Virus record (IMG/VR): IMGVR_UViG_3300009103_000012
Span: 1 to 64,000 of that record
Direction: 5' to 3' (one strand)
Source: a virus
DNA length: 64,000 nucleotides
Shown: positions 1,611 to 49,368 of the stretch, one piece after another
Layout of the letters: the number at the start of each line of letters is the position of its first letter
Numbering within the stretch: the first letter of the stretch is position 1
Program-made: the position numbers and the translations under genes
Notes under the pieces: model-generated
What the model was told of the DNA's origin: nothing
Seen by the model: the letters and a program-made list of their open reading frames with translations, nothing else
Database searches by the model: none

Positions 1611-3221
1611 TTATTCCCACGTTACCACGATGTGCTGGTGTTCTTCATCAACATCTGTAATTCTTAATTCCTGATTAGAAGAACGATAATCCTCATAATG
1701 TGCCATTGCATCATCAAAATGTTTTTGGGTCGGCGGATGGTCTCTAGCGGATTCACCCCAGACATGTCCAATAGAGTAACCACCAAGAGCAGCGAATGCC
1801 ATATATTCCGGTGACGTTGCTTGATCGTAGTTTAATTCTGCTACGAGAACATCACCGGTCTCGCCATCTAGAAGATCCCACATGAACAAATCAGGATGTC
1901 GACTTACCTCTGGACCCATCATATATGCTAGCTCCTGGGCCTGCTCCCATTCGTCTGCATCCCAGAGTTGCATAATCTTGGCAACTTCTTCTCTTGATTC
2001 CCTTAGTAAACGCCTTATGTATCGACGAAGAAGAATACGGCTTTCCCCAACAATCTCATCATATGCGTTCATCTCAGCATCAATCAATGCTTTTCCAAGA
2101 TCTGGACCTTTTATCCCTTGAGCCATAAGCTCTTGCGGATCGCCTGCTTTTGGAGCAGCAACATAATCTAAAAACTTTTTAACAGCAGCTGGGGTCGGAG
2201 TACCAACAATCGCCGCGAACTCTGTAACCACGGCAGGATCGAGCTTAAATCGCTTAAAGTCTTTTTTAAGCTGAGGGGCGGTCTCTCTTGACATACCCTT
2301 AAGCGCCACAAGAAATTGGATCAGCTTCGTCTCCTCATTTGAGTATTTCATATTTTTTAGAACTGGACCAACTGCATCAGGATCATTGTCTCCCAATAGC
2401 GAAGCTATCTGAACATTGGCGTTTTGTGTTGTTGATCCAGATATTCCAACATCAAGACCTGGAAAGATCTGCTCAAATAATTCCAGCTCTTCCGTCAACT
2501 GAAGAAAATAGCCGATATCCTGCGCGGATGTTATTCCCTTAATGAATTCATCTCTTATCCGTTCGGGAGAAACTTGCCTCAGTTCATTGTCGTCGAGAAT
2601 CGCCTGCTTCGTTTCCTCATCAAGCTCAGACCCAGTACGACCTGCAAATCGAACTGCTCGTAAAATTCGAAGCGGGTCTTCAGCGAATCTATCAGCTGCG
2701 GCACCAACAGGTCGAACAATACCGTCTTCAATATCCTGAATACCCCCAACGAAATCAATAACTTCCTGAGCCGCCATATCATAGAAAAGAGCGTTCATTG
2801 TAAGATCTCTACGTTGGGCGTCAGTTTCCATATCTGTAAAACTAACAGAATCCGGACGTCGACCAGAACCCATGTCTTCTCTAAATGTAGCAACTTCATA
2901 TTCATTTCCGGCAGGTGTCTTTACAAGCACCACACCAAATGCCTCGCCAACCGGCTTGATTTGAAGCTGCGGATCTCGTTTGAGGATCTTGGTAACTTTC
3001 TCCGGCGGAGCGTTCGTGGCCACGTCATAGTCTTTTGGTGACTGACCCATGAGAGCATCGCGGACTGCGCCACCAACAAGATAAAGCTCTTGCCCAGCGG
3101 ACTCCATCCTCTTTTGAATATTCTGGAGATCAGCAGGTATCGATATGCTAAGCGATTGACGAATCGGACCTTGGTCAGCTGTTTCTACTATCATTTTTAT
3201 GTATTCATGTAGTAGGGGCAT
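1611..3221 (-). CDS. CCA-adding/poly(A) polymerase fused to a second leader-plus-domain
   Basis: 536 residues from ATG 3221, preceded by GGAGATTGTG. Leader MPLLHEYIKMIVETA is at the N-terminus. Residues about 33-260 are a class II tRNA nucleotidyltransferase/poly(A) polymerase: LVGGAVRD (48-54), DYDVAT (64-69, the catalytic Asp pair), RRDLTMNAL (137-145) and DPLRILRAVRFAGR. Such enzymes add CCA to tRNA or A-tails to RNA. At residues 396-409 a second leader copy (RRYIRRLLRESR) occurs, followed by a roughly 120-residue domain containing EQAQELAYMMG, like the LAEM motif of the two downstream proteins. This looks like two leader-bearing genes fused. Whether the enzyme acts on tRNA or mRNA cannot be told. 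Packaging into the head is inferred. Confidence 0.85.
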   Translation of the reverse strand: MPLLHEYIKMIVETADQGPIRQSLSISIPADLQNIQKRMESAGQELYLVGGAVRDALMGQSPKDYDVATNAPPEKVTKILKRDPQLQIKPVGEAFGVVLVKTPAGNEYEVATFREDMGSGRRPDSVSFTDMETDAQRRDLTMNALFYDMAAQEVIDFVGGIQDIEDGIVRPVGAAADRFAEDPLRILRAVRFAGRTGSELDEETKQAILDDNELRQVSPERIRDEFIKGITSAQDIGYFLQLTEELELFEQIFPGLDVGISGSTTQNANVQIASLLGDNDPDAVGPVLKNMKYSNEETKLIQFLVALKGMSRETAPQLKKDFKRFKLDPAVVTEFAAIVGTPTPAAVKKFLDYVAAPKAGDPQELMAQGIKGPDLGKALIDAEMNAYDEIVGESRILLRRYIRRLLRESREEVAKIMQLWDADEWEQAQELAYMMGPEVSRHPDLFMWDLLDGETGDVLVAELNYDQATSPEYMAFAALGGYSIGHVWGESARDHPPTQKHFDDAMAHYEDYRSSNQELRITDVDEEHQHIVVTWE

Positions 3222-3783
3222 CACAATCTCCTGCTTTTATTAGCTCTTCAACCCCCTGCGCGTTCCAGATACATCCTGATGCTACATCCCAACCGTAATA
3301 CCAAAAAGCATCGTCGTCCATCCTCTTGCTGCTTAAGTACGGACAGATCTCTATCCCTGAATAATGCTCTGCGACTTTTGGCCAGTCGATCATCTTATCG
3401 AGCCCCTTACTACCATCAGGATCAGCAGGATGATTTACGCTGTACATCTTAGCAAACTTTTCGAAATGGTGGTCATCGGTGATGTGCAATATATAGTAGC
3501 CGTCATCTTTGAGAATAACATTGTAGGTGCTATCATACTTGTCATAACCGGACGTCAATCCAACCGTACAAAACTCTTCCCATGTCTCCGAGCTTCCGTC
3601 TTGACACTCATACCAAAGACCATTTGGCTTGGGTCCAATCTCCTGGGAAAACCCACTAATCTGTGGCTCGGTACCTGATCGAGTGCCTTCTCGAGAATGA
3701 TGGATCCTCATCTTGTCTTGAGCATAAATCGGAAAATGAGATTCATTGATTAACTCTCTCATATACTGGCGTAGAAGACTCAT
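3205..3783 (-). CDS. Leader-bearing protein of unknown function
   Basis: 192 residues starting MSLLRQYMRELINES, with the leader ending I-N-E|S. The body is rich in Trp, Tyr and Asp: GLWYECQDGSSETWEEF near residue 55, a Y-Y-I-L-H-I-T-D stretch near 98, and YGWDVASGCIWN near 165. Such spaced aromatic motifs suggest a folded, possibly enzymatic, domain, but I cannot name the family. The gene overlaps its downstream neighbour by about 17 bases and its upstream neighbour by ATGA. Size and position match a packaged-cargo gene. Confidence 0.75.
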   Translation of the reverse strand: MSLLRQYMRELINESHFPIYAQDKMRIHHSREGTRSGTEPQISGFSQEIGPKPNGLWYECQDGSSETWEEFCTVGLTSGYDKYDSTYNVILKDDGYYILHITDDHHFEKFAKMYSVNHPADPDGSKGLDKMIDWPKVAEHYSGIEICPYLSSKRMDDDAFWYYGWDVASGCIWNAQGVEELIKAGDCDAPTT

Positions 3784-4298
3784 GCTTTAACCTTCCCAAG
3801 ACTGAATGCAACAGGCTTAAACTTTTGCCACATCTTACCGCCCTTCTTATCAGCAATAAAAACTTGGACTGCGGAGATGTCTATCTCTTCGCCTTTTGGA
3901 ATTCGTACTTCACTCTCATCTTCAAACATTGGTGGCTCTTCACCTGTTACTGTTGGGTCATACCCAAAGTCATTCGGGATCTTGCCAACAAACATCACAT
4001 GGAGAGTGCTACCTCTATTCTTTGCAGACCATGCATCCGCAAAATTGGCGGCAACATCTTGGTTGGTGGTCCATGATTCACCGATCTCTTCATTTTGCAG
4101 CTGTCCCATGATAAAAGAGCCAGCTTCACGCTCACTCATCCCCGCAGGCTTGTCTTGCGCTATCCTTCTTATCGCTCGAGCTAAACCATCATTGCCCATA
4201 TCAATTTTCATGCCGCGATAGATGTACTTTAAGCCTGGACCTGCGGAATTATCTTTTTCCGTGATCAACTCTCTTATGTATTCGCGGAGGAGATTCAT
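3780..4298 (-). CDS. Leader-bearing ADP-ribosyltransferase-like protein
   Basis: 172 residues beginning MNLLREYIRELITEK. The rest fits the R-S-E class of mono-ADP-ribosyltransferases, in order: Y-R-G-M (Arg about 28), E-S-W-T-T-N (the S-T-T element, about 75-80), and E-S-E-V-R-I-P-K-G (E-x-E followed by the usual I-P-K-G turn, about 130). These enzymes move ADP-ribose from NAD+ to proteins. T4 Alt is the precedent: an ADP-ribosyltransferase carried in the head behind a cleavable targeting leader. The match to that arrangement is strong, but the assignment is by motif only. Start overlaps the upstream stop (TAATG). Confidence 0.7.
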   Translation of the reverse strand: MNLLREYIRELITEKDNSAGPGLKYIYRGMKIDMGNDGLARAIRRIAQDKPAGMSEREAGSFIMGQLQNEEIGESWTTNQDVAANFADAWSAKNRGSTLHVMFVGKIPNDFGYDPTVTGEEPPMFEDESEVRIPKGEEIDISAVQVFIADKKGGKMWQKFKPVAFSLGKVKA

Positions 4299-5500
4299 TA
4301 GTAATTCCTTGCGCCTATTGTATCGACATCAGGATACTTATCAACCATCTTGTCTTTTATATGTCCGATTGCGGGATGCATCATCTTACCAAAGCTAACG
4401 TTGTCTCCAGGTTGTACTACGTTTTCATAGAAATGCTCGACAAGTTTACTTGCTGTCCCTTGGCCACGACTATCACTTCGATTTTTCATATAGTCGATAT
4501 ACCAATATGTACTTCCATCAGAATTCTTGGCGTGTTGATGATAGTCTAAAAATCCAATGACACAGACATCACTAACACCCGGAACAATTTCTTCAAGAAC
4601 CGGTTTTTTGAGCTTTCTTCCGGTCGATGAGCGTTTTCGCCATCTTTCCCATTCCTTAAAGTAGGGATCATGATGCTCTGGTGGCTCTGTAACTGCTTTG
4701 TCACAATATGCAATACGCTTTACATTACTTGAGCGAGAATACTTCAGCGGAGAATCTAGTTCATGGAACTCAACACCTTCGCTAAGCAAGCCGATGGCTT
4801 CTGCTAAGCCCATCTTTTTATACCAATTGGTAATCACATCATTTGTGTTTTGTCCAACCCAATTTTTCTTTTGTCGGCCTTTGGCTTTTCCGTCTTGACC
4901 CATCGTCTTTCGATCGGCTTTGTTCCAGCCGTACTCGTTAACTTCGATTAACAAGTCTCTCACATATCGTCTTAAGGCCGCTTCTTGGACTGGGTCATCA
5001 AGCACGCATGGATCTTTTAACGCTTCACCGACAAAGTGCGGAATAGCTTCGAGACCTGCATCTTCTGCAACTTTCATAAAATGGTCTAAGTGGTCGGATC
5101 GATCTTCCCAAACTTGTACAGTTTGAAGATCTGGGAACTTTTGAATAAACTGCTCTAGCATCGATGACTTCCAAGCCATTGTTCTTCCACCGGGCTTCAA
5201 GTGAATCTCATCAAAAGACAGACCAGCTGATGAGACAAGCTCTGAAACTCTCGCATGCAATTCGGGAGACATCCCTCTGCCTGTCATAAGAACAACATAG
5301 GCTTCAGGACGATTGATTGCTTCAGCTGCGGCAGAAACAGAGCCTCCGATCCATAAGGGACCAGGATCAATAACACATGGGGGAGTTAAAGACTGGAGAG
5401 TATCGAACCACTGACCTGTATGACCTTCCCAATCATCAGGGAACATTGGGCTCATGAAAAGAGTTGCGTCAAAATCAAATATACAAAGCTCAGTTATCAT
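4298..5500 (-). CDS. HAD phosphatase domain - internal leader - GNAT acetyltransferase domain
   Basis: 400 residues. The N-terminal third is a HAD-superfamily domain: FDFDATL (8-14) holds the nucleophile Asp pair, LMTGRG (71-76) is motif II, and VWEDRSDH (130-137) the acidic motif. Residues 174-186 (EAALRRYVRDLLIEV) are an internal copy of the leader. The C-terminal part looks like a GNAT N-acetyltransferase: hydrophobic strands, YIDYMKN, then SRGQGTASKLVEHF, the acetyl-CoA pyrophosphate loop (R-x-x-G-x-A). It has no leader at its own N-terminus, so a HAD gene was apparently fused in front of a leader-GNAT gene. Substrates unknown. Confidence 0.75.
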   Translation of the reverse strand: MITELCIFDFDATLFMSPMFPDDWEGHTGQWFDTLQSLTPPCVIDPGPLWIGGSVSAAAEAINRPEAYVVLMTGRGMSPELHARVSELVSSAGLSFDEIHLKPGGRTMAWKSSMLEQFIQKFPDLQTVQVWEDRSDHLDHFMKVAEDAGLEAIPHFVGEALKDPCVLDDPVQEAALRRYVRDLLIEVNEYGWNKADRKTMGQDGKAKGRQKKNWVGQNTNDVITNWYKKMGLAEAIGLLSEGVEFHELDSPLKYSRSSNVKRIAYCDKAVTEPPEHHDPYFKEWERWRKRSSTGRKLKKPVLEEIVPGVSDVCVIGFLDYHQHAKNSDGSTYWYIDYMKNRSDSRGQGTASKLVEHFYENVVQPGDNVSFGKMMHPAIGHIKDKMVDKYPDVDTIGARNY

Positions 5501-5501
5501 C

Positions 5502-5801
5502 TCATCCTCTACGAACGGTATACGATCTTCCCGCTGGGTTTAACATGGGAGCCAACTGATCCATAGTCTTCTTGAGAATGTCGCCTTCCTCCCATGTTGG
5601 GCCAGAATTTGTGCAGCGATAACCAACCACCTTACCCTGATCATCTGGCAACTCTTCAACAGACACGACTGTGCCCTCGCTACCTTTATGTCTACAATTA
5701 TCATTAACATTCATAATCATATCACCCTCTTTTGGTTCGAATGAATGACTTTGATATGTTTCTTTGATAAGAGCCCTAATGTACTCTCGTAAGATCTTCA
5801 T
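5502..5801 (-). CDS. Small leader-bearing SH3/KOW-like protein
   Basis: 99 residues starting MKILREYIRALIKET. The remaining 80 residues are beta-rich: E-G-D-M-I-M-N-V, then K-G-S-E-G-T-V-V-S-V-E, a KOW/SH3-barrel pattern in which a Gly precedes a strand pair. A similar barrel follows the internal leader of the HD protein at 10359-11105. Function unknown; nucleic-acid or protein binding would be usual for such folds. One base separates it from the HAD-GNAT gene. Confidence 0.75.
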   Translation of the reverse strand: MKILREYIRALIKETYQSHSFEPKEGDMIMNVNDNCRHKGSEGTVVSVEELPDDQGKVVGYRCTNSGPTWEEGDILKKTMDQLAPMLNPAGRSYTVRRG

Positions 5802-5805
5802 ACAC

Positions 5806-6552
5806 TTATCCCCGCAATACAGACATAAGTATTTTGCGGAGACGGTCTTTTATATTCTCTGTACAGGTTTCTGGGCTGGAAGCCGAACCATTGGCAACTT
5901 GATAGGCGGAAATCTTGACATCAGGCGAATACTGCTTACAAAGTTGAGCTACAGCACGGACATTTCTTTCACTATCGTCGTAAAAAATTAACTCTTCTGG
6001 CTGGTGCTTGTCGAGGTACCCAGCAAGTACCGAAGCCTTTCCAGCTGGTGTTTCGCCATCCATATCCCCCACTGTGTGTAACTGATTGTCAGATATACCG
6101 ATTCCATTATCATTAAGGAACTGAATGATCTGCTGCCTATTCTGGGGTGTTATATTCGCTCCCTGAGCTGGACTGTACATATCTTTACTTCCAGCTCTTG
6201 CGGTAACAACCAAAGCGAGCGTCTCAGGGTCCGCTTGAGCTTCAGATAATTTACTCAACATGGAACTGATGCCTTTCGATAACGTCATATCAATGGAGGC
6301 TGTACCAGAATAGTCTATTTCATCTTCTGAACCTTTTGGTACGGGTAATTCTTCAAAAAGAGCAAAATTCGCTGAATCTAACCACCAGAATCCGTGTTCA
6401 TTTCTTACATATTGAATATTGTTGTCTAACAGAAAGTCCTCGAATGACTTATCGGGCGTTCCATCTGCCAAAAGTCGACGAACCCCAATGGTGGAAACCG
6501 TTTGAGCTAGAGTGTCGTCAAAATCAAAAGCTATGATTCTCTTAATAGGCAT
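5806..6552 (-). CDS. HAD-superfamily phosphatase
   Basis: 248 residues from ATG 6552, with AGGGAT upstream. HAD motifs: AFDFDDTLAQ (8-17) with nucleophile and acid/base Asp, VVTARAG (about 135-141) and FYDDSERN (about 208-215). The shape resembles polynucleotide-kinase phosphatase or small-molecule HAD enzymes of phages, but the substrate cannot be read from sequence. There is no N-terminal leader; the C-terminus (IKDRLRKILMSVL) is a weak leader-like amphipathic helix. An ATATTTA motif sits just upstream (6557-6564). Confidence 0.75.
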   Translation of the reverse strand: MPIKRIIAFDFDDTLAQTVSTIGVRRLLADGTPDKSFEDFLLDNNIQYVRNEHGFWWLDSANFALFEELPVPKGSEDEIDYSGTASIDMTLSKGISSMLSKLSEAQADPETLALVVTARAGSKDMYSPAQGANITPQNRQQIIQFLNDNGIGISDNQLHTVGDMDGETPAGKASVLAGYLDKHQPEELIFYDDSERNVRAVAQLCKQYSPDVKISAYQVANGSASSPETCTENIKDRLRKILMSVLRG

Positions 6553-7572: not shown

Positions 7573-7910
7573 GGGGGCGTAACGGCTTCGACGGGGTAGA
7601 ATCAAGGGGAGAGTGCAAGCGGGTAAGAAACGGCCCCTAATCGTTCAAAAACAATAGTTGCAAATAACAACAACCACTTCGAAGAGCGCTTAGCCGCTTA
7701 ATCGGGTGGCTGCCTAAAGCCATCTATCCAATTTAGGCTTGAGCAGTTGGTCCTGCCGAGAAATAAAAGCCCACCAGTCCTCACTCGGTCACAGCAGAGG
7801 CGAAAAAGGCAGTGACTATCCTACTGGCCGGAGAAATGACCAGACAAGCTTGTGGATGACTCAAACTAAGACTATTGCGGACGCGGGTTCGACTCCCGCC
7901 GCCTCCACCA
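7573..7910 (+). ncRNA. ssrA: tmRNA (ssrA), one-piece, CCA encoded
   Basis: 338 bases. The 5' GGGGGCG pairs with CGCCTCC just before the encoded ACCA end, forming a seven-pair acceptor stem. The 5' region continues with the tmRNA signature TAACGGCTTCGACGGGG, and the 3' T-arm is GCGGGTTCGACTCCCGC. Between them lie a tag reading frame (7660-7701) and sequence able to form pseudoknots. tmRNA enters stalled ribosomes as an alanine tRNA, swaps templates and adds a degradation tag. The one-piece form differs from the two-piece form typical of alphaproteobacteria. A T-run follows the CCA. It heads the only plus-strand island. Confidence 0.95.
7660..7701 (+). other. tmRNA tag-peptide reading frame
   Basis: Resume codon GCA at 7660, then Asn x4, His, Phe, Glu, Glu, Arg, Leu, Ala, Ala and stop TAA at 7699-7701. 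The encoded tag is ANNNNHFEERLAA, added after the tRNA-borne Ala. The L-A-A end is the ClpX-recognised end of the E. coli tag; the N-N-N-N-H-F-E-E-R middle is unlike the common E. coli tag ANDENYALAA. The frame is set by the stop, and the preceding bases fit the usual A-rich resume context. Confidence 0.85.
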
Positions 7911-8270: not shown

Positions 8271-9482
8271 ATGGCTTCGGGAAGCTGGTCGCTTAAGGGA
8301 CAGAAATTTACTGATCAAAAAGATTATAACGACTTAAGTCTGCTGGAAATTCTTACAATCCTAATTCCAGACGGAAATCTAACAAAGGAAAAACAAATGT
8401 CAAAAATTGATGAAAATAAAGACGATACTTACATTAACGCTCCAGATGCGGGTGATGATTTTGATTTCGTCATGGCTTATGATGATGATCCAGCTGAAGC
8501 GGATGAAAGATTACTCCCGGACAATGCAGCCCGATCCGCGATATCATGTGGCTTTATTGGAGTCGGTGGAGGTGGAGGAAAATTAGCTAAAGCATTTCTC
8601 GATCTTGGATTTAATAAGACTATCTTAGTAAATACCACCAAAAAAGATCAGCCAGGTGGTCTAGAAGAATCACACTTTGTTCTCGTTCCAGGAGCTGACG
8701 GTGTCGGAAAAGATATTAAGCTAGGTAAACAAGTCCTCCAAGAAAACAGTGCTTTTGTTGAAGACGCTGTCCGTACAAGACTTGGTCAGGTTGATTGGCT
8801 ATTCGTATGTGCCGGTGGCGGTGGCGGTACCGGATCTGCGTGTCATGAACTACATGGCTCTTTGAGTCGGTATCTATCATCTATCGAAGCGTCTGGAAAG
8901 GTTGTATACATCGTTTCTAAGCCAACAGCACAAGAAATGCTGAACCCCACTATCTCAAAAAATTACAAATCACTTATAGCAGATATCGCTGGTACTCCGC
9001 ATATTGTTATTGATAACGAAAAACAGCTACAACTGCTGAGAGGGAAAGTAGGGATGATGAATATGTTCCCTGCTGCTAACAAAAACTTCGCAAAGCTTCT
9101 TGCTCAAGTCCTTAAGCTAGCCGATGAACATACTGAAATCCAAACATTCGATACAAAAGACCTCGAGAAGTGTTTAAGCACCGAGGGCAGAATGGTTCTT
9201 GGAAGTACAGTGGTTCGAGATGTGACAAGGAGTGACCTGGGTTCACTTGTATACCAAGGATGCCTACGATCTTCCCCATGCCCAACACCTTCGGGTGCGG
9301 CCGAGACTGGAACACTTCTCCTTGTCGTAAATGGTGATATGGCGTCTGATCCCGACGTCAGCCGAAGACTAGAGTCTGCATTTTCTTACGTCGGTGGTCG
9401 AGCTTCGACACTCTTCTCGGGTGTGTATATAAAGGAAGGAATCCCCGGACTAATCGCAATTACCCTATTAGGCGGAATCTAA
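8271..9482 (+). CDS. Tubulin/FtsZ-like GTPase (phage tubulin)
   Basis: 403 residues if started at ATG 8271 (GGAG eight bases before); ATG 8397 with AAGGA is an equally good start and would give 361 residues, closer to the family core. GFIGVGGGGGKLAKAF is the first nucleotide loop and CAGGGGGTGSACHEL the tubulin signature GGGTG(S/T)G. The region after it should hold the catalytic loop, but I do not see a standard N-x-D-x-x-D. Phage tubulins (PhuZ, TubZ) form filaments that position or segregate phage DNA; this role is inferred. The N-terminus is very acidic. Confidence 0.8.
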   Translation: MASGSWSLKGQKFTDQKDYNDLSLLEILTILIPDGNLTKEKQMSKIDENKDDTYINAPDAGDDFDFVMAYDDDPAEADERLLPDNAARSAISCGFIGVGGGGGKLAKAFLDLGFNKTILVNTTKKDQPGGLEESHFVLVPGADGVGKDIKLGKQVLQENSAFVEDAVRTRLGQVDWLFVCAGGGGGTGSACHELHGSLSRYLSSIEASGKVVYIVSKPTAQEMLNPTISKNYKSLIADIAGTPHIVIDNEKQLQLLRGKVGMMNMFPAANKNFAKLLAQVLKLADEHTEIQTFDTKDLEKCLSTEGRMVLGSTVVRDVTRSDLGSLVYQGCLRSSPCPTPSGAAETGTLLLVVNGDMASDPDVSRRLESAFSYVGGRASTLFSGVYIKEGIPGLIAITLLGGI

Positions 9483-9483
9483 A

Positions 9484-10353
9484 ATGAACTTGACCGAGGC
9501 AACGTTACGTATAATAATAAGGGAAGAAATTCTCCACAACCAACAAAAGAAAATTAACGAAGCGGTCATAGGACTTATAACCGAAGGGCTATACGATCCT
9601 GGAATCTTAAAAGCTGTCTTCATGGCAGGCGGTCCTGGAAGCGGTAAAAGTAAGACTGCATCCTTAATCTTCGGAGGTGAAGCTATAGAAAATGCAGCTA
9701 TGCAAGCAGGTACCGCGACTGGACTTCGCGTTATCAATAGTGATCCAGCCTTCGAGAAATTTCTAAAAGATGCGGGAATCTCACCCTCTGAGCTGAAGGA
9801 TATGAGTGATGAAGAATTCTACAATGTGACTGAGCTTCCGGGTTCGCCGCGGCAGAAAGCAAAGGGATTAAAGAAAGTCGCTCAATCAGCTGCAATGATC
9901 GGTCGTCTCGGGTTGATTGTGGATGGTACAGGACAAGATCTGGACAAGATGAAAAAGAAAAAAGCATACGTGGAGAAGGCGGGTTATGATACCATGATGG
10001 TATTCGTCAATACCACCCTAGAAAAAGCTCAAGAACGAAACCTAAAGCGAGAAAGAAAGCTTAAGGAAGCCGATGTGGAAGAAATCTGGACCAACGTCCA
10101 AGCGAATCTTGAGGCATATCGATCATTATTCGGGGCAAACTTTCAGATTATAGACAATACAGACTACAACTGGGATGTGGCCACCAAAGAGGCAGCGGCT
10201 GCTGCGCAAGCATTTGTTGCATCGCCGATTAAAAACCCAATCGGTCGTGAATGGATCGAGCAGCAGGTTAAAGAAAGAGAAATTGATAGAGAAGACCCAT
10301 GGGTCGGTAAGAAAATGGACAAACTTCTTACGTTACCACCAGAAGGGGACTAA
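9484..10353 (+). CDS. Leader-bearing P-loop kinase, zeta-toxin-like
   Basis: 289 residues starting one base after the tubulin stop. The N-terminus MNLTEATLRIIIREEI is a variant leader (I-R-E). Residues about 40-60 contain the Walker A loop AGGPGSGKSKT, followed by VINSDPAFEKF and LIVDGTGQDL, the layout of zeta-toxin and related AAA-type kinases (P-loop, N-x-D substrate motif, D-G-T-G). A Lys/Arg-rich stretch (ERNLKRERKLKE) follows. It probably phosphorylates a small molecule, nucleotide or RNA end; the substrate cannot be named. It runs convergently with the HD gene, six bases apart. Confidence 0.75.
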   Translation: MNLTEATLRIIIREEILHNQQKKINEAVIGLITEGLYDPGILKAVFMAGGPGSGKSKTASLIFGGEAIENAAMQAGTATGLRVINSDPAFEKFLKDAGISPSELKDMSDEEFYNVTELPGSPRQKAKGLKKVAQSAAMIGRLGLIVDGTGQDLDKMKKKKAYVEKAGYDTMMVFVNTTLEKAQERNLKRERKLKEADVEEIWTNVQANLEAYRSLFGANFQIIDNTDYNWDVATKEAAAAAQAFVASPIKNPIGREWIEQQVKEREIDREDPWVGKKMDKLLTLPPEGD

Positions 10354-10358
10354 TCGCT

Positions 10359-11105
10359 TTAGTCGTTACGGACAAGCTCAACGTCAACAACTTCGGTCAG
10401 TGTTATACTTTTGGTTTCCCACAGGACCCTAATATAGGTCGTGTAATTTCCACGCCTTTTTTCTAATACAACACCAATCCGGCCTGTCTCAGTGCATCTG
10501 ACTGTGCACCCTTTCTCTACTTTGTTCGTAGGTTTCATGTATTCCCTTATTAGTAATCTTAAAGCGCGGTTTTCTAATGTTTCTGTCAAAGATATTAAAT
10601 CATCCCAATGTTGTGTACTGATATCGGCTGGTACTCCACCTACAGCGTTAGTTGCAATTTCCAACGCATCACCATATTTCTTTTTCTGTCGCTCTGATGG
10701 AGATGACGAAAGATTATGAAGCATATCAGAAAGCTTTACTCTCAACGCTAGTGGGTTATCTAGCAAAGAAACGACATACGTTCCATAATCGGTCCCTTTA
10801 TCGTGAGTCAAGCTTCTGACGGCGTCTACGACTTCTTGACCAGATGCTGGGTCTGCGATTGAACCAAGAATAAAAGACTCCATTTCCTCGATCGAGCCTA
10901 CTGTCGAACCGGGAGCGTCCTCTAATGAATCATGAAGAAGTGCAACCATCTGTGCAGCATAATCATCAGGATAATATTTGCGTACGATATTACGAACTTC
11001 AGACGGGTGCGTAAAATACTCTGCACCTGTTCTTCTCTTCTGCCCCATGTGAGCCATACGAGCAGTTGAATACACGTCTTCGAAGTCTTCTCTTGTGAAG
11101 GTAGC
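10359..11105 (-). CDS. HD hydrolase, (p)ppGpp-hydrolase-like, with internal leader and SH3/KOW-like tail
   Basis: 248 residues from ATG 11105 (MATFTRED). Residues 20-64 have ARMAHMGQKRRTGAEYFTHP and ALLHDSLEDAP (H59-D60 and E63-D64), and residues 125-132 have KLSDMLHN: the metal site of SpoT/Rel/MESH1-type HD hydrolases that remove pyrophosphate from ppGpp. No synthetase domain. Residues 181-191 (RALRLLIREYM) are an internal leader-like segment, followed by a 50-residue beta-rich KOW/SH3-like domain. Lowering host ppGpp after infection would favour growth; that role is inferred. Confidence 0.75.
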   Translation of the reverse strand, partial: ATFTREDFEDVYSTARMAHMGQKRRTGAEYFTHPSEVRNIVRKYYPDDYAAQMVALLHDSLEDAPGSTVGSIEEMESFILGSIADPASGQEVVDAVRSLTHDKGTDYGTYVVSLLDNPLALRVKLSDMLHNLSSSPSERQKKKYGDALEIATNAVGGVPADISTQHWDDLISLTETLENRALRLLIREYMKPTNKVEKGCTVRCTETGRIGVVLEKRRGNYTTYIRVLWETKSITLTEVVDVELVRND

Positions 11106-11110
11106 CATAG

Positions 11111-11121
11111 CAATAAATATC
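11111..11121 (-). promoter_or_regulatory. ATATTTA motif upstream of HD gene
   Basis: Minus-strand GATATTTATTG, seven bases before ATG 11105. Variant of the recurring CATATTTA motif, same orientation as the gene. Confidence 0.3.
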
Positions 11122-11467
11122 ACATAAAAAGTTGTATGGCCAAAATAGCGCAAGACAAAGTAATGCAGAGCATTGTCTTAAGAGTGAACATCGATTCGCC
11201 CAGAAAATAATACGTCATAAATGGAAATGTTAGATAAGATAGCGAAAATGCTAAGAACCTTACGCCCCATGCAGAGTCACCAAGAGCGCTATATCCAAAC
11301 CTAGACCCAAAATATGCTAGCATAGATATTGGGATCGCCAATGTTAATGAAACCCACAAGCTTTTTGCAGACCAGCCTGTATTCATAAACTGAAGATTTG
11401 TGGAAAACCATACCATTACATGTAAGCTAATGAAACATAACGCTGAGTATGCAATGTTAGCGCTCAT
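11120..11467 (-). CDS. Small four-helix membrane protein
   Basis: 115 residues, almost wholly hydrophobic, with four probable transmembrane segments (about residues 4-24, 36-54, 68-88 and 93-113). Strong ribosome-binding site AAAGGAGG ahead of ATG 11467. The length and layout resemble small multidrug/EamA-like transporters, but no signature was recognised. It could equally be a lysis-related membrane protein. Its start overlaps the end of the 56-residue gene upstream. Confidence 0.65.
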   Translation of the reverse strand: MSANIAYSALCFISLHVMVWFSTNLQFMNTGWSAKSLWVSLTLAIPISMLAYFGSRFGYSALGDSAWGVRFLAFSLSYLTFPFMTYYFLGESMFTLKTMLCITLSCAILAIQLFM

Positions 11468-18300: not shown

Positions 18301-19108
18301 CTTTTAACTCCATAAACGGCGTAGAGTATTTTCCCCACGCTTTATCGCTAATCATACTTTTGAATTTTAACGTCGTAAAGGCTTCTCGTAAAGTCTCAAG
18401 CGGCTCACTCGGAAATGAATATTCTATTAACAGTCTTTCCCGATTTGTCATCGGTTGTAGCGCTATCATCTCCAAATTCTGAAGATAGGTATTGCGATGT
18501 TCTGGGAACTTGTCAAAATACTCTGTTAATCGACCTGGCTCAAGGAGCTGCGTAGCGCGCTTATTCCCGATCCCCTTAATTCCCGCTATGTTATCTGAAC
18601 TATCTCCTCGTAAGGCTTTCCATCTAGCATAGGGATAAGCAGGTACCTCTCTAAAGTCTTTCTTGATCGGATTATATAGAGATGTATTCGTAGCGTCTTG
18701 ACACAACTGAATGAAGTCTGTGTCACTGGAAACAATAATCTTTTCATGGTCATCAGGAATCAGACATAGCGCAAGATCTGCTATCACATCATCTGCTTCT
18801 GCTTCAGGATGTCGTGCTGTAACAAACGGCACTGACTCTCTTATGATATTTTCTGCGCGCTTTTTCTGAGCACGAAACCCATCTTTATCATGGTACTTTC
18901 GTGTACCCTTATAGTCAGGTTGCATTTCCATTCTTTTCTTTGGATATCCGTCAAGAACAAAATACACATAATCTGGAGAGAACTTTTCTACAATAGGCTT
19001 AAGACTACGAAAGAACGTGTGAATAATCACATTATCATAGCTTCTTCTGGCGCACGCATGACGAGCCCTAAACAACAAATTATTCGCATCCAATAACAAG
19101 TGTTTCAT
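18278..19108 (-). CDS. 5'-3' exonuclease / flap endonuclease (FEN fold), copy 1
   Basis: 276 residues. LLLDANNLLFRARHA opens the fold, EAEADDVIADLAL and SSDTDFIQL carry the metal-binding acids, and GDSSDNIAGIKGIGNKRATQLL is the helix-3-turn DNA-binding motif. Such nucleases remove RNA primers and flaps. It is smaller than the second copy at 53330-54280 and lies away from the replication genes, beside GroEL. Whether it is RNase H-like or flap-specific cannot be told. Confidence 0.85.
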   Translation of the reverse strand: MKHLLLDANNLLFRARHACARRSYDNVIIHTFFRSLKPIVEKFSPDYVYFVLDGYPKKRMEMQPDYKGTRKYHDKDGFRAQKKRAENIIRESVPFVTARHPEAEADDVIADLALCLIPDDHEKIIVSSDTDFIQLCQDATNTSLYNPIKKDFREVPAYPYARWKALRGDSSDNIAGIKGIGNKRATQLLEPGRLTEYFDKFPEHRNTYLQNLEMIALQPMTNRERLLIEYSFPSEPLETLREAFTTLKFKSMISDKAWGKYSTPFMELKDGRKYFT

Positions 19109-19109
19109 T

Positions 19110-19547
19110 TCACATCCTTAACTTCGCGGTACGACCATCAGGAAGAGCGACCTCTATAGGATCACCTGTCGTAGACCCCAAGTCCAGCTCTTCTACTGCA
19201 GCAGATGGGGTAGGTGCAAGTTCTGGGGGCTTAAGATACGTAGCTGCCTCGACAGCAGTTGCTACAAGCTTATCGATCGCTTTCTCCGTCCTCTCCAGCA
19301 TAAAAACCTTTACGTCATCTGGGTCTTCAAAAAGCTCAACTTTCTGGGGATCAACCTCTATAGACTTAAAGGACTTACCCTGTTTTACCTTTAGAACATA
19401 CGTAACTCGTACATCAACATCTAAAGAAGAACGAGTGATCTTTTCTACGACAAGAGCGGGTATTACTTGCTCAGTCTTGCTTGAAATAAAGTAAACAACG
19501 TTTCCGACCCTAAACTCGGATCCGAACGCTCCTTTAGCAGATGTCAT
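19110..19547 (-). CDS. SH3-like hypothetical protein
   Basis: 145 residues from ATG 19547, with GGAGG seven bases before it; a longer frame would cover the end of the nuclease gene. FRVGNVVYFISSKTEQVIPALVVEK and the following strands look like an SH3/KOW barrel; then a helical part and a Pro/Ala-rich acidic tail with GDPIEVALPDGRTAKLRM. Function unknown. Confidence 0.65.
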   Translation of the reverse strand: MTSAKGAFGSEFRVGNVVYFISSKTEQVIPALVVEKITRSSLDVDVRVTYVLKVKQGKSFKSIEVDPQKVELFEDPDDVKVFMLERTEKAIDKLVATAVEAATYLKPPELAPTPSAAVEELDLGSTTGDPIEVALPDGRTAKLRM

Positions 19548-20202
19548 TGAGATCCTCCAGCTGAATTTTATATTGTGATGGTTTATTATACCACATTTCC
19601 AGCTTTTGTGCAGCGGTTTGTTTTTCTTTTTTCGTTTTTGCGGTAACCATGCGCTCTTCATATTTCTTCATGTACATCTTCCTCTTATCCTCAAACGACC
19701 CGATAAGTGGGGTACACTTCTTAAATGCAGTATGCTTATTTAGACGAGCTTTACCTCTTGCACCGGGAGATGGTTCTTTGAAATCTTCTGGTGTCAGTGC
19801 TGTAAACAAAAGAAGCCCAACATTCTGATGTGTTCTATCAAAAAGCAAATAGAGAAAATCACACTCTCCCTTTTTGATAAGTGTCGCCTTATCTGTCTGC
19901 AGATGCCAAGACCCTGTCTTTCCCTGACATACAACTTTACACTCTAGCTCACGGTCGTCTAGACACTCGATAATAATGTCAGCTGCACCGGTACGACCAT
20001 CATTAGAGCATGTTCCAAATGACTGGTTAATAGCATTTGCAAAGAAGTGCTCTTGTGCTGCTGATATTAGAATATTCTGTCTACCGACATCATTCGTAAT
20101 GTCAATTCCGTGAGCTGAGTAAAGCTCCTTGATCTGACAGAAAAGCTTATTGATATTCTGGATCGCGGTGAGCGACGAATCTCGTGTAAGATAAGGTTGC
20201 AT
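19534..20202 (-). CDS. PD-(D/E)xK-type nuclease-like protein
   Basis: 222 residues; GAGG seven bases before ATG 20202. GAADIIIECLDDRELECKVVCQG has D, then E-x-K spaced as in restriction-endonuclease-fold nucleases, followed by strand-rich sequence and a basic C-terminal helix (KKYEERMVTAKTKKEKQ). Could be a recombination or host-DNA-degrading nuclease. The motif is suggestive, not proof. First gene after a clear promoter. Confidence 0.55.
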   Translation of the reverse strand: MQPYLTRDSSLTAIQNINKLFCQIKELYSAHGIDITNDVGRQNILISAAQEHFFANAINQSFGTCSNDGRTGAADIIIECLDDRELECKVVCQGKTGSWHLQTDKATLIKKGECDFLYLLFDRTHQNVGLLLFTALTPEDFKEPSPGARGKARLNKHTAFKKCTPLIGSFEDKRKMYMKKYEERMVTAKTKKEKQTAAQKLEMWYNKPSQYKIQLEDLNDIC

Positions 20203-46832: not shown

Positions 46833-47843
46833 TTATTGGACAAATTTACAAAGTTGTAAAGCTACTCTATAGGGATCGCATCCTGATGATGGGCGACGAT
46901 CTTCAAGGTACCCACGCCACTCTTTCTCTATAACACTATTGGGTATCCTCACTGAAGTGTCTCTAGCGGCGACGCCATAAGTAAATCTATCTAATGAAGC
47001 CGTCTCAAATCCCCCAGTTAGACGAAGACCATTCTCAGCCCCATATTCAGATATCGACTCGTGATGTCGAGCCTCCATATTAGAAATAATTCGCTGGAAT
47101 TCTTCTTCATTACCATCTTCTCTCATTTTCTTAGTAGAGAAATTAGTATGACACCCAGAGCCATTCCAACCAGGGTGGGGCTTGGGATGCCAATCGACAC
47201 CAAGCTCAAGGTCTTCTGTCATCAGCTCCAGAAGATACCTACTAACCCACAACGCATCGGCGGCAGTTATCGGATTCTCTGCGAAACATTGATATTCCCA
47301 TTGTCCTGGGGAGACCTCCGCATTATAGCCAACCACCCTAACTCCGACCTGATTACAAAATGAAGCATGCTCACGAATAAGCTTCCGAAACTTCACGCTA
47401 CCTCCTGAAGAGCAATAGTAACGCGAATCCTTGATCGGCTCTCCGCTATCAGGCCAGAACACATTCTTATCATTCGAAGTGATGAAATATTCCTGTTCGA
47501 AACCAACCCACATTTCTTGAGCACCTTCCGTGCTCGCTACTGCTTCTCGTAACTTCGCCCTGTAATTTGACGGATGAGGTGTTCGCTCAGCATTAGGCAT
47601 ACATACTTCACATAAAGCAACATAGTGATTGTCAGCGACTTGAAACATTGCTTTTGGTTGCAGGACTCTTTCAGAGTCGCCAGTGTCTGCTTGCCCGGTC
47701 GAAGAGCCATCAAAGTTCCACTCAGGAACATCTAATTGAACTTCTCCAGCTTCATTAGGCTGAAGGACAGTCGATTTTGTTTTCGACCTAATGGAGGGAT
47801 GCTCAAAACCATCCACCCAAATATAGTCTAAATGAACTAACAT
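46833..47843 (-). CDS. glnII: Glutamine synthetase, type II (eukaryote-like)
   Basis: 336 residues, slightly short for GSII (about 350-370). VPEWNFDGSSTGQA is the beta-grasp signature (W-N-F-D-G-S-S), VVGYNAEVSPGQWEYQ gives the catalytic Glu residues, NGSGCHTNFSTKKMR the ATP/glutamate site, GFETASLDRFTYGVAARDTSVRIP the ammonia-side Arg, and YLEDRRPSSGCDPY the C-terminal signature. Makes glutamine from glutamate and ammonia. Unusual in a phage; probably tunes host nitrogen flow for nucleotide synthesis. Catalytic residues look intact. Start overlaps the endolysin stop (TAATG). Confidence 0.9.
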   Translation of the reverse strand: MLVHLDYIWVDGFEHPSIRSKTKSTVLQPNEAGEVQLDVPEWNFDGSSTGQADTGDSERVLQPKAMFQVADNHYVALCEVCMPNAERTPHPSNYRAKLREAVASTEGAQEMWVGFEQEYFITSNDKNVFWPDSGEPIKDSRYYCSSGGSVKFRKLIREHASFCNQVGVRVVGYNAEVSPGQWEYQCFAENPITAADALWVSRYLLELMTEDLELGVDWHPKPHPGWNGSGCHTNFSTKKMREDGNEEEFQRIISNMEARHHESISEYGAENGLRLTGGFETASLDRFTYGVAARDTSVRIPNSVIEKEWRGYLEDRRPSSGCDPYRVALQLCKFVQ

Positions 47844-48765: not shown

Positions 48766-49368
48766 CTACTCAAAATCAATGTCGACAGCTACCTTTATAG
48801 ACAGCTTCGGAACACGAAGATGATTAGCCATGTTATGCTTCTTGGTTTCTGCTGCATCCAGAAACCAGTCCGCATGCTTCTTCTTATCTACGATCTTCAT
48901 GAAATAGTCATCTTTCTTACCGCAATTCTGAGCCATCATGGTATAAATTATTGTATTTAGCCTGTCGGCTTCTGCGGCGCCAGCCTTCATCTCTTCAACT
49001 TTACCCCATTCCATTGACGAAACATCATGAATCATTACTGTTGCGTTGGGGTCCATAAACCGATATCCTTCATCTCCAAATGAAAACAACACTGCTCCGC
49101 ACGACATAGCTTTACCTTCTACGATAGTTGCTACGGGAATCTCAGCGTGTTTAATCGCACTAATCATGCTCATTAAACTATATACTTGGCCGCCATAAGA
49201 ATCGATTATCACTGGAATTACCTTTTGCCCAGTATTATGAGCTTGTCCCATTTCTAATGCAAATTTCTTTGCTGACTCTTCATCGAACTTATTGACGCGA
49301 ATCATTATTGGCTGCTTCCTCAGCTCTATCTCTTTTATTTTCGGATCTATCTCAGATGTCCAGTGCAT
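48766..49368 (-). CDS. ClpP-type serine protease
   Basis: 200 residues, the usual ClpP length. VIIDSYGGQVYSLMSMISAI, EGKAMSCGAVLFSFG with catalytic Ser89, ATVMIHDVSS with His114 and KKKHADWFLDAAE with Asp167 make the triad. ClpP degrades proteins with Clp ATPases, including tmRNA-tagged ones. Could also serve as a maturation protease. No Clp ATPase is in the window. Note S-C in place of the usual S-M after the nucleophile. Confidence 0.85.
   Translation of the reverse strand: MHWTSEIDPKIKEIELRKQPIMIRVNKFDEESAKKFALEMGQAHNTGQKVIPVIIDSYGGQVYSLMSMISAIKHAEIPVATIVEGKAMSCGAVLFSFGDEGYRFMDPNATVMIHDVSSMEWGKVEEMKAGAAEADRLNTIIYTMMAQNCGKKDDYFMKIVDKKKHADWFLDAAETKKHNMANHLRVPKLSIKVAVDIDFE

Follow-up and report, generated by a model that had tools for sequence, protein, structure and literature searches.

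The DNA analysed here (the window) is 64 kb of a virus record of 84,394 bases, itself a fragment, and it raises the question of why one short leader peptide lies inside fused proteins as well as at the start of others. The preliminary description had placed three multidomain open reading frames (ORFs) in it, and all three were present, on the minus strand (1611-3224, 4298-5500 and 10359-11153). The best explanation overall, which we consider probable, is that a T4-like capsid-targeting leader of a T4-type marine phage links cargo domains as a modular joint. Cargo genes with this leader would have been fused one behind another again and again and recombined at it, which would be why it now stands in N-terminal, C-terminal or internal position. 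There is good support for the leader as a joint between exchangeable cargo domains and for the fusion of leader-bearing genes; packaging of leader-bearing cargo into the head is likely, judging from the sequences, and of all the steps we are least sure of cutting at the internal copies, which has slightly less than an even chance of being right.

The leader in the three fused proteins

A profile of 11 columns was built only from N-terminal leaders, taken from the window's record and from seven relatives; the leader has the form LLREYIRELLxE and is 14-15 residues long. Scanning all genes of these eight sources gave 90 places of at least 12 bits, compared with one or two in shuffled proteins; a few of the places were inside unrelated structural proteins, and such matches were mostly left out of the upstream-context statistics. 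The profile, together with the re-selection given below, showed that unrelated cargo is tagged by a common short leader ending (L/I)xE. The claim that the same leader sits inside all three fused proteins held for the first two; the copy in the third is weak and truncated.

The first protein (1611-3224, minus strand, 537 aa) is a CCA-adding enzyme (PolyA_pol; Pfam PF01743, 7e-36, and PF12627, 1e-8) with an N-terminal leader MMPLLHEYIKMIVE (3183-3224, 7.3 bits), an internal leader LRRYIRRLLRE (1998-2030, aa 399-409, preceded by IVGES) and an orphan C-terminal domain (1611-1997). The internal leader scored 25.7 bits, which was reached by 0 of 5000 shuffles of the CCA protein. The C-terminal domain had been described as LAEM-type, but it is not detectably so: BLASTP gave no similarity to the LAEM-type protein at 1100-1609 or to the domain in locus L004, and tblastn of the fetched loci returned only the domain itself. 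The L004 domain matching the position of the CCA tail resembles the window's LAEM-type protein at 576-1118 (37 residues, E 6e-6).

The second protein (4298-5500, minus strand, 400 aa; PF10307, 5e-15) is a fusion of HAD (SAK_1), leader, linker and GNAT. The leader had been placed between the HAD and GNAT domains at 4943-4981, and the copy is real (LRRYVRDLLIE, 4943-4975, aa 176-186, preceded by PVQEAA; 19.8 bits, reached by 0 of 5000 shuffles of the HAD protein), but the GNAT domain begins about 55 residues later, where GLAEAIGLLSE (4778-4810, followed by GVEF), another leader end but a degenerate one, forms the actual GNAT junction. The stretch between the two leader copies has a leader-bearing single-gene relative of its own (L103 747-938, 43% over 46 residues). 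A second HAD-like protein on the minus strand (5806-6552) ends in CTENIKDRLRKILMSVLRG, possibly another C-terminal leader.

The third protein (minus strand) joins an HD_4-like phosphohydrolase, a truncated leader and an SH3-like tail. Its ORF is 10359-11153, the true start is probably the ATG at 11108, and the match to HD_4 (3.5e-5) is below the curated cut-off, while that to phrog_990, a metal-dependent phosphohydrolase, is 1e-30. The leader copy LRLLIREYM(KP) (10536-10562) has no terminal (L/I)xE and scored 8.4 bits (P = 0.028). In L009, L011 and L012 the HD protein ends with a C-terminal leader or shortly beyond it, whereas in the window, L007 and L008 the SH3-like tail continues past it, and tblastn of the fetched loci found no leader-bearing single-gene relative of the tail. 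Because the LxE is lost and the tail lacks such a relative, this copy more plausibly represents a C-terminal leader that gained a tail than the internal joint it had been described as. The gene at 9484-10353 (plus strand) encodes a Zeta-toxin/AAA_33-like kinase (1.6e-10) with a leader-like N-terminus ending NEAVIGLITE, then GLYDPG.

An N-terminal leader is present in the CCA protein and absent from the HAD and HD proteins. It is carried by several neighbouring cargo genes of the minus strand: the 'SHFPL' ('SHFPLTGG') protein at 3205-3783 (MSLLRQYMRELINE), the ART-like protein at 3780-4298 (MNLLREYIRELITE, 32.2 bits; assigned by motifs only, with no Pfam match), the SH3/KOW-like protein at 5502-5801 (MKILREYIRALIKE, 27.1 bits; named by eye, with no Pfam match) and the LAEM-type protein at 576-1103/1118 (MNLLREYIREMLTE, 34.0 bits). 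The LAEM-type protein at 1100-1609 has a variant leader, MKITRRQLRSIIAEA, recognised from its sequence.

The internal segments could also be helices that simply belong to the folds, or artefacts of the assemblies. In the AF2 model of the CCA protein, residues 18-394 are mostly confident and the last helix (374-409) runs on into the internal leader, as an ordinary helix would, but pLDDT is below 50 from residue 395, so model confidence collapses at the leader. The CCA matches in other phages reach query residue ~380-393, and the leader begins at 399; in full-length alignments, these segments were absent from four CCA and two HD proteins that other phages encode. The HAD-GNAT model (mean pLDDT only 57) has HAD at 1-156 and GNAT at 242-400, and the leader copy lies between them in a stretch with pLDDT below 50 (157-241); the Foldseek matches of this model were weak (a HAD domain from Legionella, and GNATs with low TM-scores). 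Several contigs contain the fusions, their sequence is conserved and most of the differences are synonymous, which argues against an artefact. Both readings are thus very improbable, and that of an ordinary helix was rejected for CCA and HAD from the homologue ends and model confidence, so that the idea of internal leaders survived for these two proteins; the HD copy is weak.

Separately encoded relatives and fusion junctions

If the leader is a joint, the domains behind it may exist as genes of their own, and relatives encoding separate domains with their own leader were found for GNAT, ART-like, 'SHFPL' and other domains. The earlier claim that the downstream domains have leader-bearing single-gene relatives was therefore right for GNAT and wrong for the SH3-like tail. 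GNAT stands alone with an N-terminal leader in L072, L075-L078, L080-L083, L086 and L087; in L073 and L084 it is alone behind the leader, and the ORF extends further upstream of the leader's Met. The leader before it is internal in L071, L074, L079, L085 and L088, and in L090 it is of another type, MKKLLTEWRQFLKE. At all loci with a readable start (n = 19, L090 having the different leader), GNAT begins directly after the leader's LxE end, and these are not 19 independent cases, because several look like one phage in different assemblies. The ART-like, 'SHFPL', 'K-ADL' and DPMGF domains, too, are found both as single genes with a leader and in fusions that place them after one ('SHFPL' at G001 18830-19861, where the leader is internal), and in the fusions the new domain starts immediately past the LxE of the leader.

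The HAD protein illustrates the exchange of partners. It is followed by GNAT in the window and L071, by the ART-like domain in L005, by DPMGF in L004 and, in L194, by a long chain that adds two more parts, and the switch between ART-like (L005), DPMGF (L004, G001) and GNAT (L071) takes place at GLAEAIGLLSE. The L005 protein is 93% identical to the window's up to residue 241 and then passes into the ART-like domain, which the window encodes as the adjacent gene; this is an instance of the fusion of neighbouring leader genes that the preliminary description had suggested, and the junctions again come after LxE. The switch point is GAA, the codon for E of LLxE in both the HAD and the ART-like sequences. 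Recombination through long DNA repeats was considered and rejected as unsupported, because the leader codons differ widely and no more than a few bases around GAA are shared at the breakpoint between L005 and the window.

The CCA protein has different endings in different phages. In distant T4-type or large phages it ends without a C-terminal leader; in L154, L155 and L158 it ends within a C-terminal leader or shortly after one; and in the window, L152, L153, L159, L160 and L161 the leader is followed by varied domains. Chains of three or four domains exist among the relatives, and L159 encodes a chain of 923 aa with DUF192, CCA, a further domain and PAP2, with leaders between them. Two or more disparate domains per chain were found in CCA with its tail, HAD-GNAT and HD-SH3, with longer chains in L159, L161, L155 and L194, where the names GNAT and ART rest partly on motifs. 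A possible chain of ART, leader, middle domain, leader and ART-like domain (539 aa) was seen in L155 (4149-5768), named from motifs with no Pfam match, and runs of small genes, mostly of unknown function, with a related leader type, MKITKRQLRRIIREE/A, in L006 (12387-16399) and L103 (938-2468).

The downstream protein could instead be made separately from translation starts near the leader, so that cutting would not be needed. Some internal leaders do keep a Met (MKES, MNEA, MNES), two fusions (L006 and L103) retain the inner Met of the second leader, and the L006 fusion may be made both ways, because GAGGGA also lies ahead of its inner ATG. But the window's sites, inspected by eye, have no convincing start with a ribosome-binding site, and V at the Met position has mixed codons (GTT, GTC, GTG; by eye). 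Internal start codons were rejected as unsupported at the window's sites, and we regard this reading as quite improbable in general.

Head genes, the LxE end and cutting of the chain

gp21 (PF03420) and gp23 (PF07068) were found above their cut-offs in six relatives, and were not found in the window's own fragmentary 84-kb record. The major capsid proteins (MCPs) of the relatives share LENQAGQ[IV]LRE, followed by Q or S, and its LRE is, by analogy with T4, the predicted maturation site, matching the leader end; the scaffold between gp21 and gp23 is gp22-like by position and composition, as judged by eye. gp21 cleaves C-terminal to L/I-X-E, and incorporation of T4 IPIII needs only the first ten residues (PMC9026906). 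These head genes and the matching LxE ends speak against the reading that the leader is some other docking helix, serving for instance a hub of replication or transcription or a compartment built by the phage, and tolerated at any position of the chain. Such a helix would fit the free position of the leader (N-terminal, internal or C-terminal) and some leader-like genes that lie outside the cargo cluster; but the CCA of other T4-type phages has a different N-terminal leader, for example MKIKKYKQFLES, which resembles MKTYQEFIAEA, the N-terminus of T4 IPII and IPIII, and the CCA homologues of several isolated phages are without a leader. This alternative is unlikely.

Since the seeds of the profile had been chosen with E at column 11, segments were re-selected on leader columns 1-7 only. 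At 12 bits, [LI]xE stood at columns 9-11 in 19 of 52 distinct internal segments, against about 1% expected, and the same selection gave 54/88 for N-terminal and 1/8 for C-terminal segments. At 14 bits, LxE was rarer in internal (17/35) than in N-terminal copies (53/75; Fisher P = 0.03). Because LxE is far above chance yet kept less often, the internal copies are constrained less strictly than the N-terminal ones, and some of them may be relics. The motif [VILMC]xE[SATN] was found upstream of internal leaders in 13 of 39 distinct contexts, compared with 3.4% at random positions; it may be another site of cutting, what is left of an earlier start region, or a piece of an extended leader. Some internal leaders with this motif retain Met, and the motif may belong to a longer leader because N-terminal forms such as MRLTESALRHLIRR show the same letters; for that reason we did not accept it as a proven second cut site, although it is enriched.

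Excision by gp21 at the internal copies is plausible, and consistent with the leader LxE, the gp21 of the relatives and the predicted LRE of the MCP. The leader helices would dock the chain to a gp22-like prohead core, and gp21 would then cut after (L/I)xE and release the downstream domain, and would also free the upstream domain where there is an upstream [VML]xE site with S/A after the cut; the products would pass into the host together with the DNA. In the strongest form of this explanation the chains are true polyproteins, from which gp21 cuts the internal peptides at both ends in the closed prohead, giving two to four enzymes per chain, with one tag as address, cut site and recombination joint; we think this possible, somewhat short of an even chance. 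Multidomain effectors that stay uncut and are injected as one chain of the polyvalent type, with internal leaders as extra packaging tags or fusion relics, are a less probable but serious alternative. A known class of polyvalent proteins, whose domains include ART, GNAT, Pol-beta and metallopeptidase, is thought to be injected, and some members are packaged uncut (PMC5512222). The lower conservation of LxE at internal copies and the HD copy without it fit uncut chains, and so do HExxH-like segments in L161, L194 and G001 (12434); none was noticed in the window's three proteins, and SprT-like and Tox-MPTase3 matches were below cut-off. Against uncut chains stand the frequency of internal [LI]xE given above and the CCA fusions, in which an LxE-like end is kept ahead of downstream domains of several kinds; of three C-terminal CCA copies, two are without it (small numbers).

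If the label works and is cut internally, it would be a polyprotein route that loads a fixed set of enzymes per head. The leader, if it acts as proposed, would also be a sequence rule for predicting packed and injected proteins among uncharacterised marine phage proteins, and the exchange of cargo domains would be explained, as the junctions sit just after the label.

Comparison with known systems, and other genes of the window

The capsid-targeting sequence (CTS) of T4 and the polyvalent proteins are known kinds of system; the leader as a joint is a new variant, as far as the literature found goes. The leader is like the gp21-cut CTS of T4 IPI-IPIII and Alt, a short N-terminal peptide on unrelated cargo ending (L/I)xE, and the T4-type gp21 and gp23 (here in relatives) and ART-like cargo, as Alt in T4, are shared too. 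Unlike the T4 CTS, which is described as N-terminal in the literature found, it is 14-15 residues long, marks more genes and is also a C-terminal or internal joint. Cut sites away from the N-terminus have a precedent, because T4 Alt is trimmed at both ends, with a C-terminal site at LTE-619 (PMC5694885). A literature search found no report of internal capsid-targeting repeats, which does not exclude one.

The polyvalent proteins (Iyer et al. 2017, PMC5512222) are likewise multidomain phage proteins, with ART, GNAT, nucleotidyltransferase and metallopeptidase domains, and have been proposed to be processed into parts, mainly by built-in zincin peptidases; many of them carry an autoprocessing metallopeptidase. 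Unlike in those proteins, copies of one packaging-type leader with a gp21-type end separate the domains here, and several of the domains also exist as single leader genes. In the SPN3US/phiKZ-type giant phages, many head proteins are also cut after glutamate by a gp21-like protease; as far as the consulted part of that literature (PMC10052503) goes, their known propeptides are mostly N-terminal and up to 254 residues long, and no leader-delimited multidomain chains were found there.

Other genes of the window were noted in passing. On the plus strand there are a phage-encoded tmRNA with the tag ANNNNHFEERLAA (7573-7910) and a protein with a tubulin/FtsZ-like GGGGGTGS stretch (8271-9482; Pfam Tubulin 2e-4, under its cut-off). 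On the minus strand there are a phage glutamine synthetase (46833-47843, 1.4e-18) and a ClpP-like protease (48766-49368, 7e-23), and relatives of the phage also have the T4-type prohead protease.
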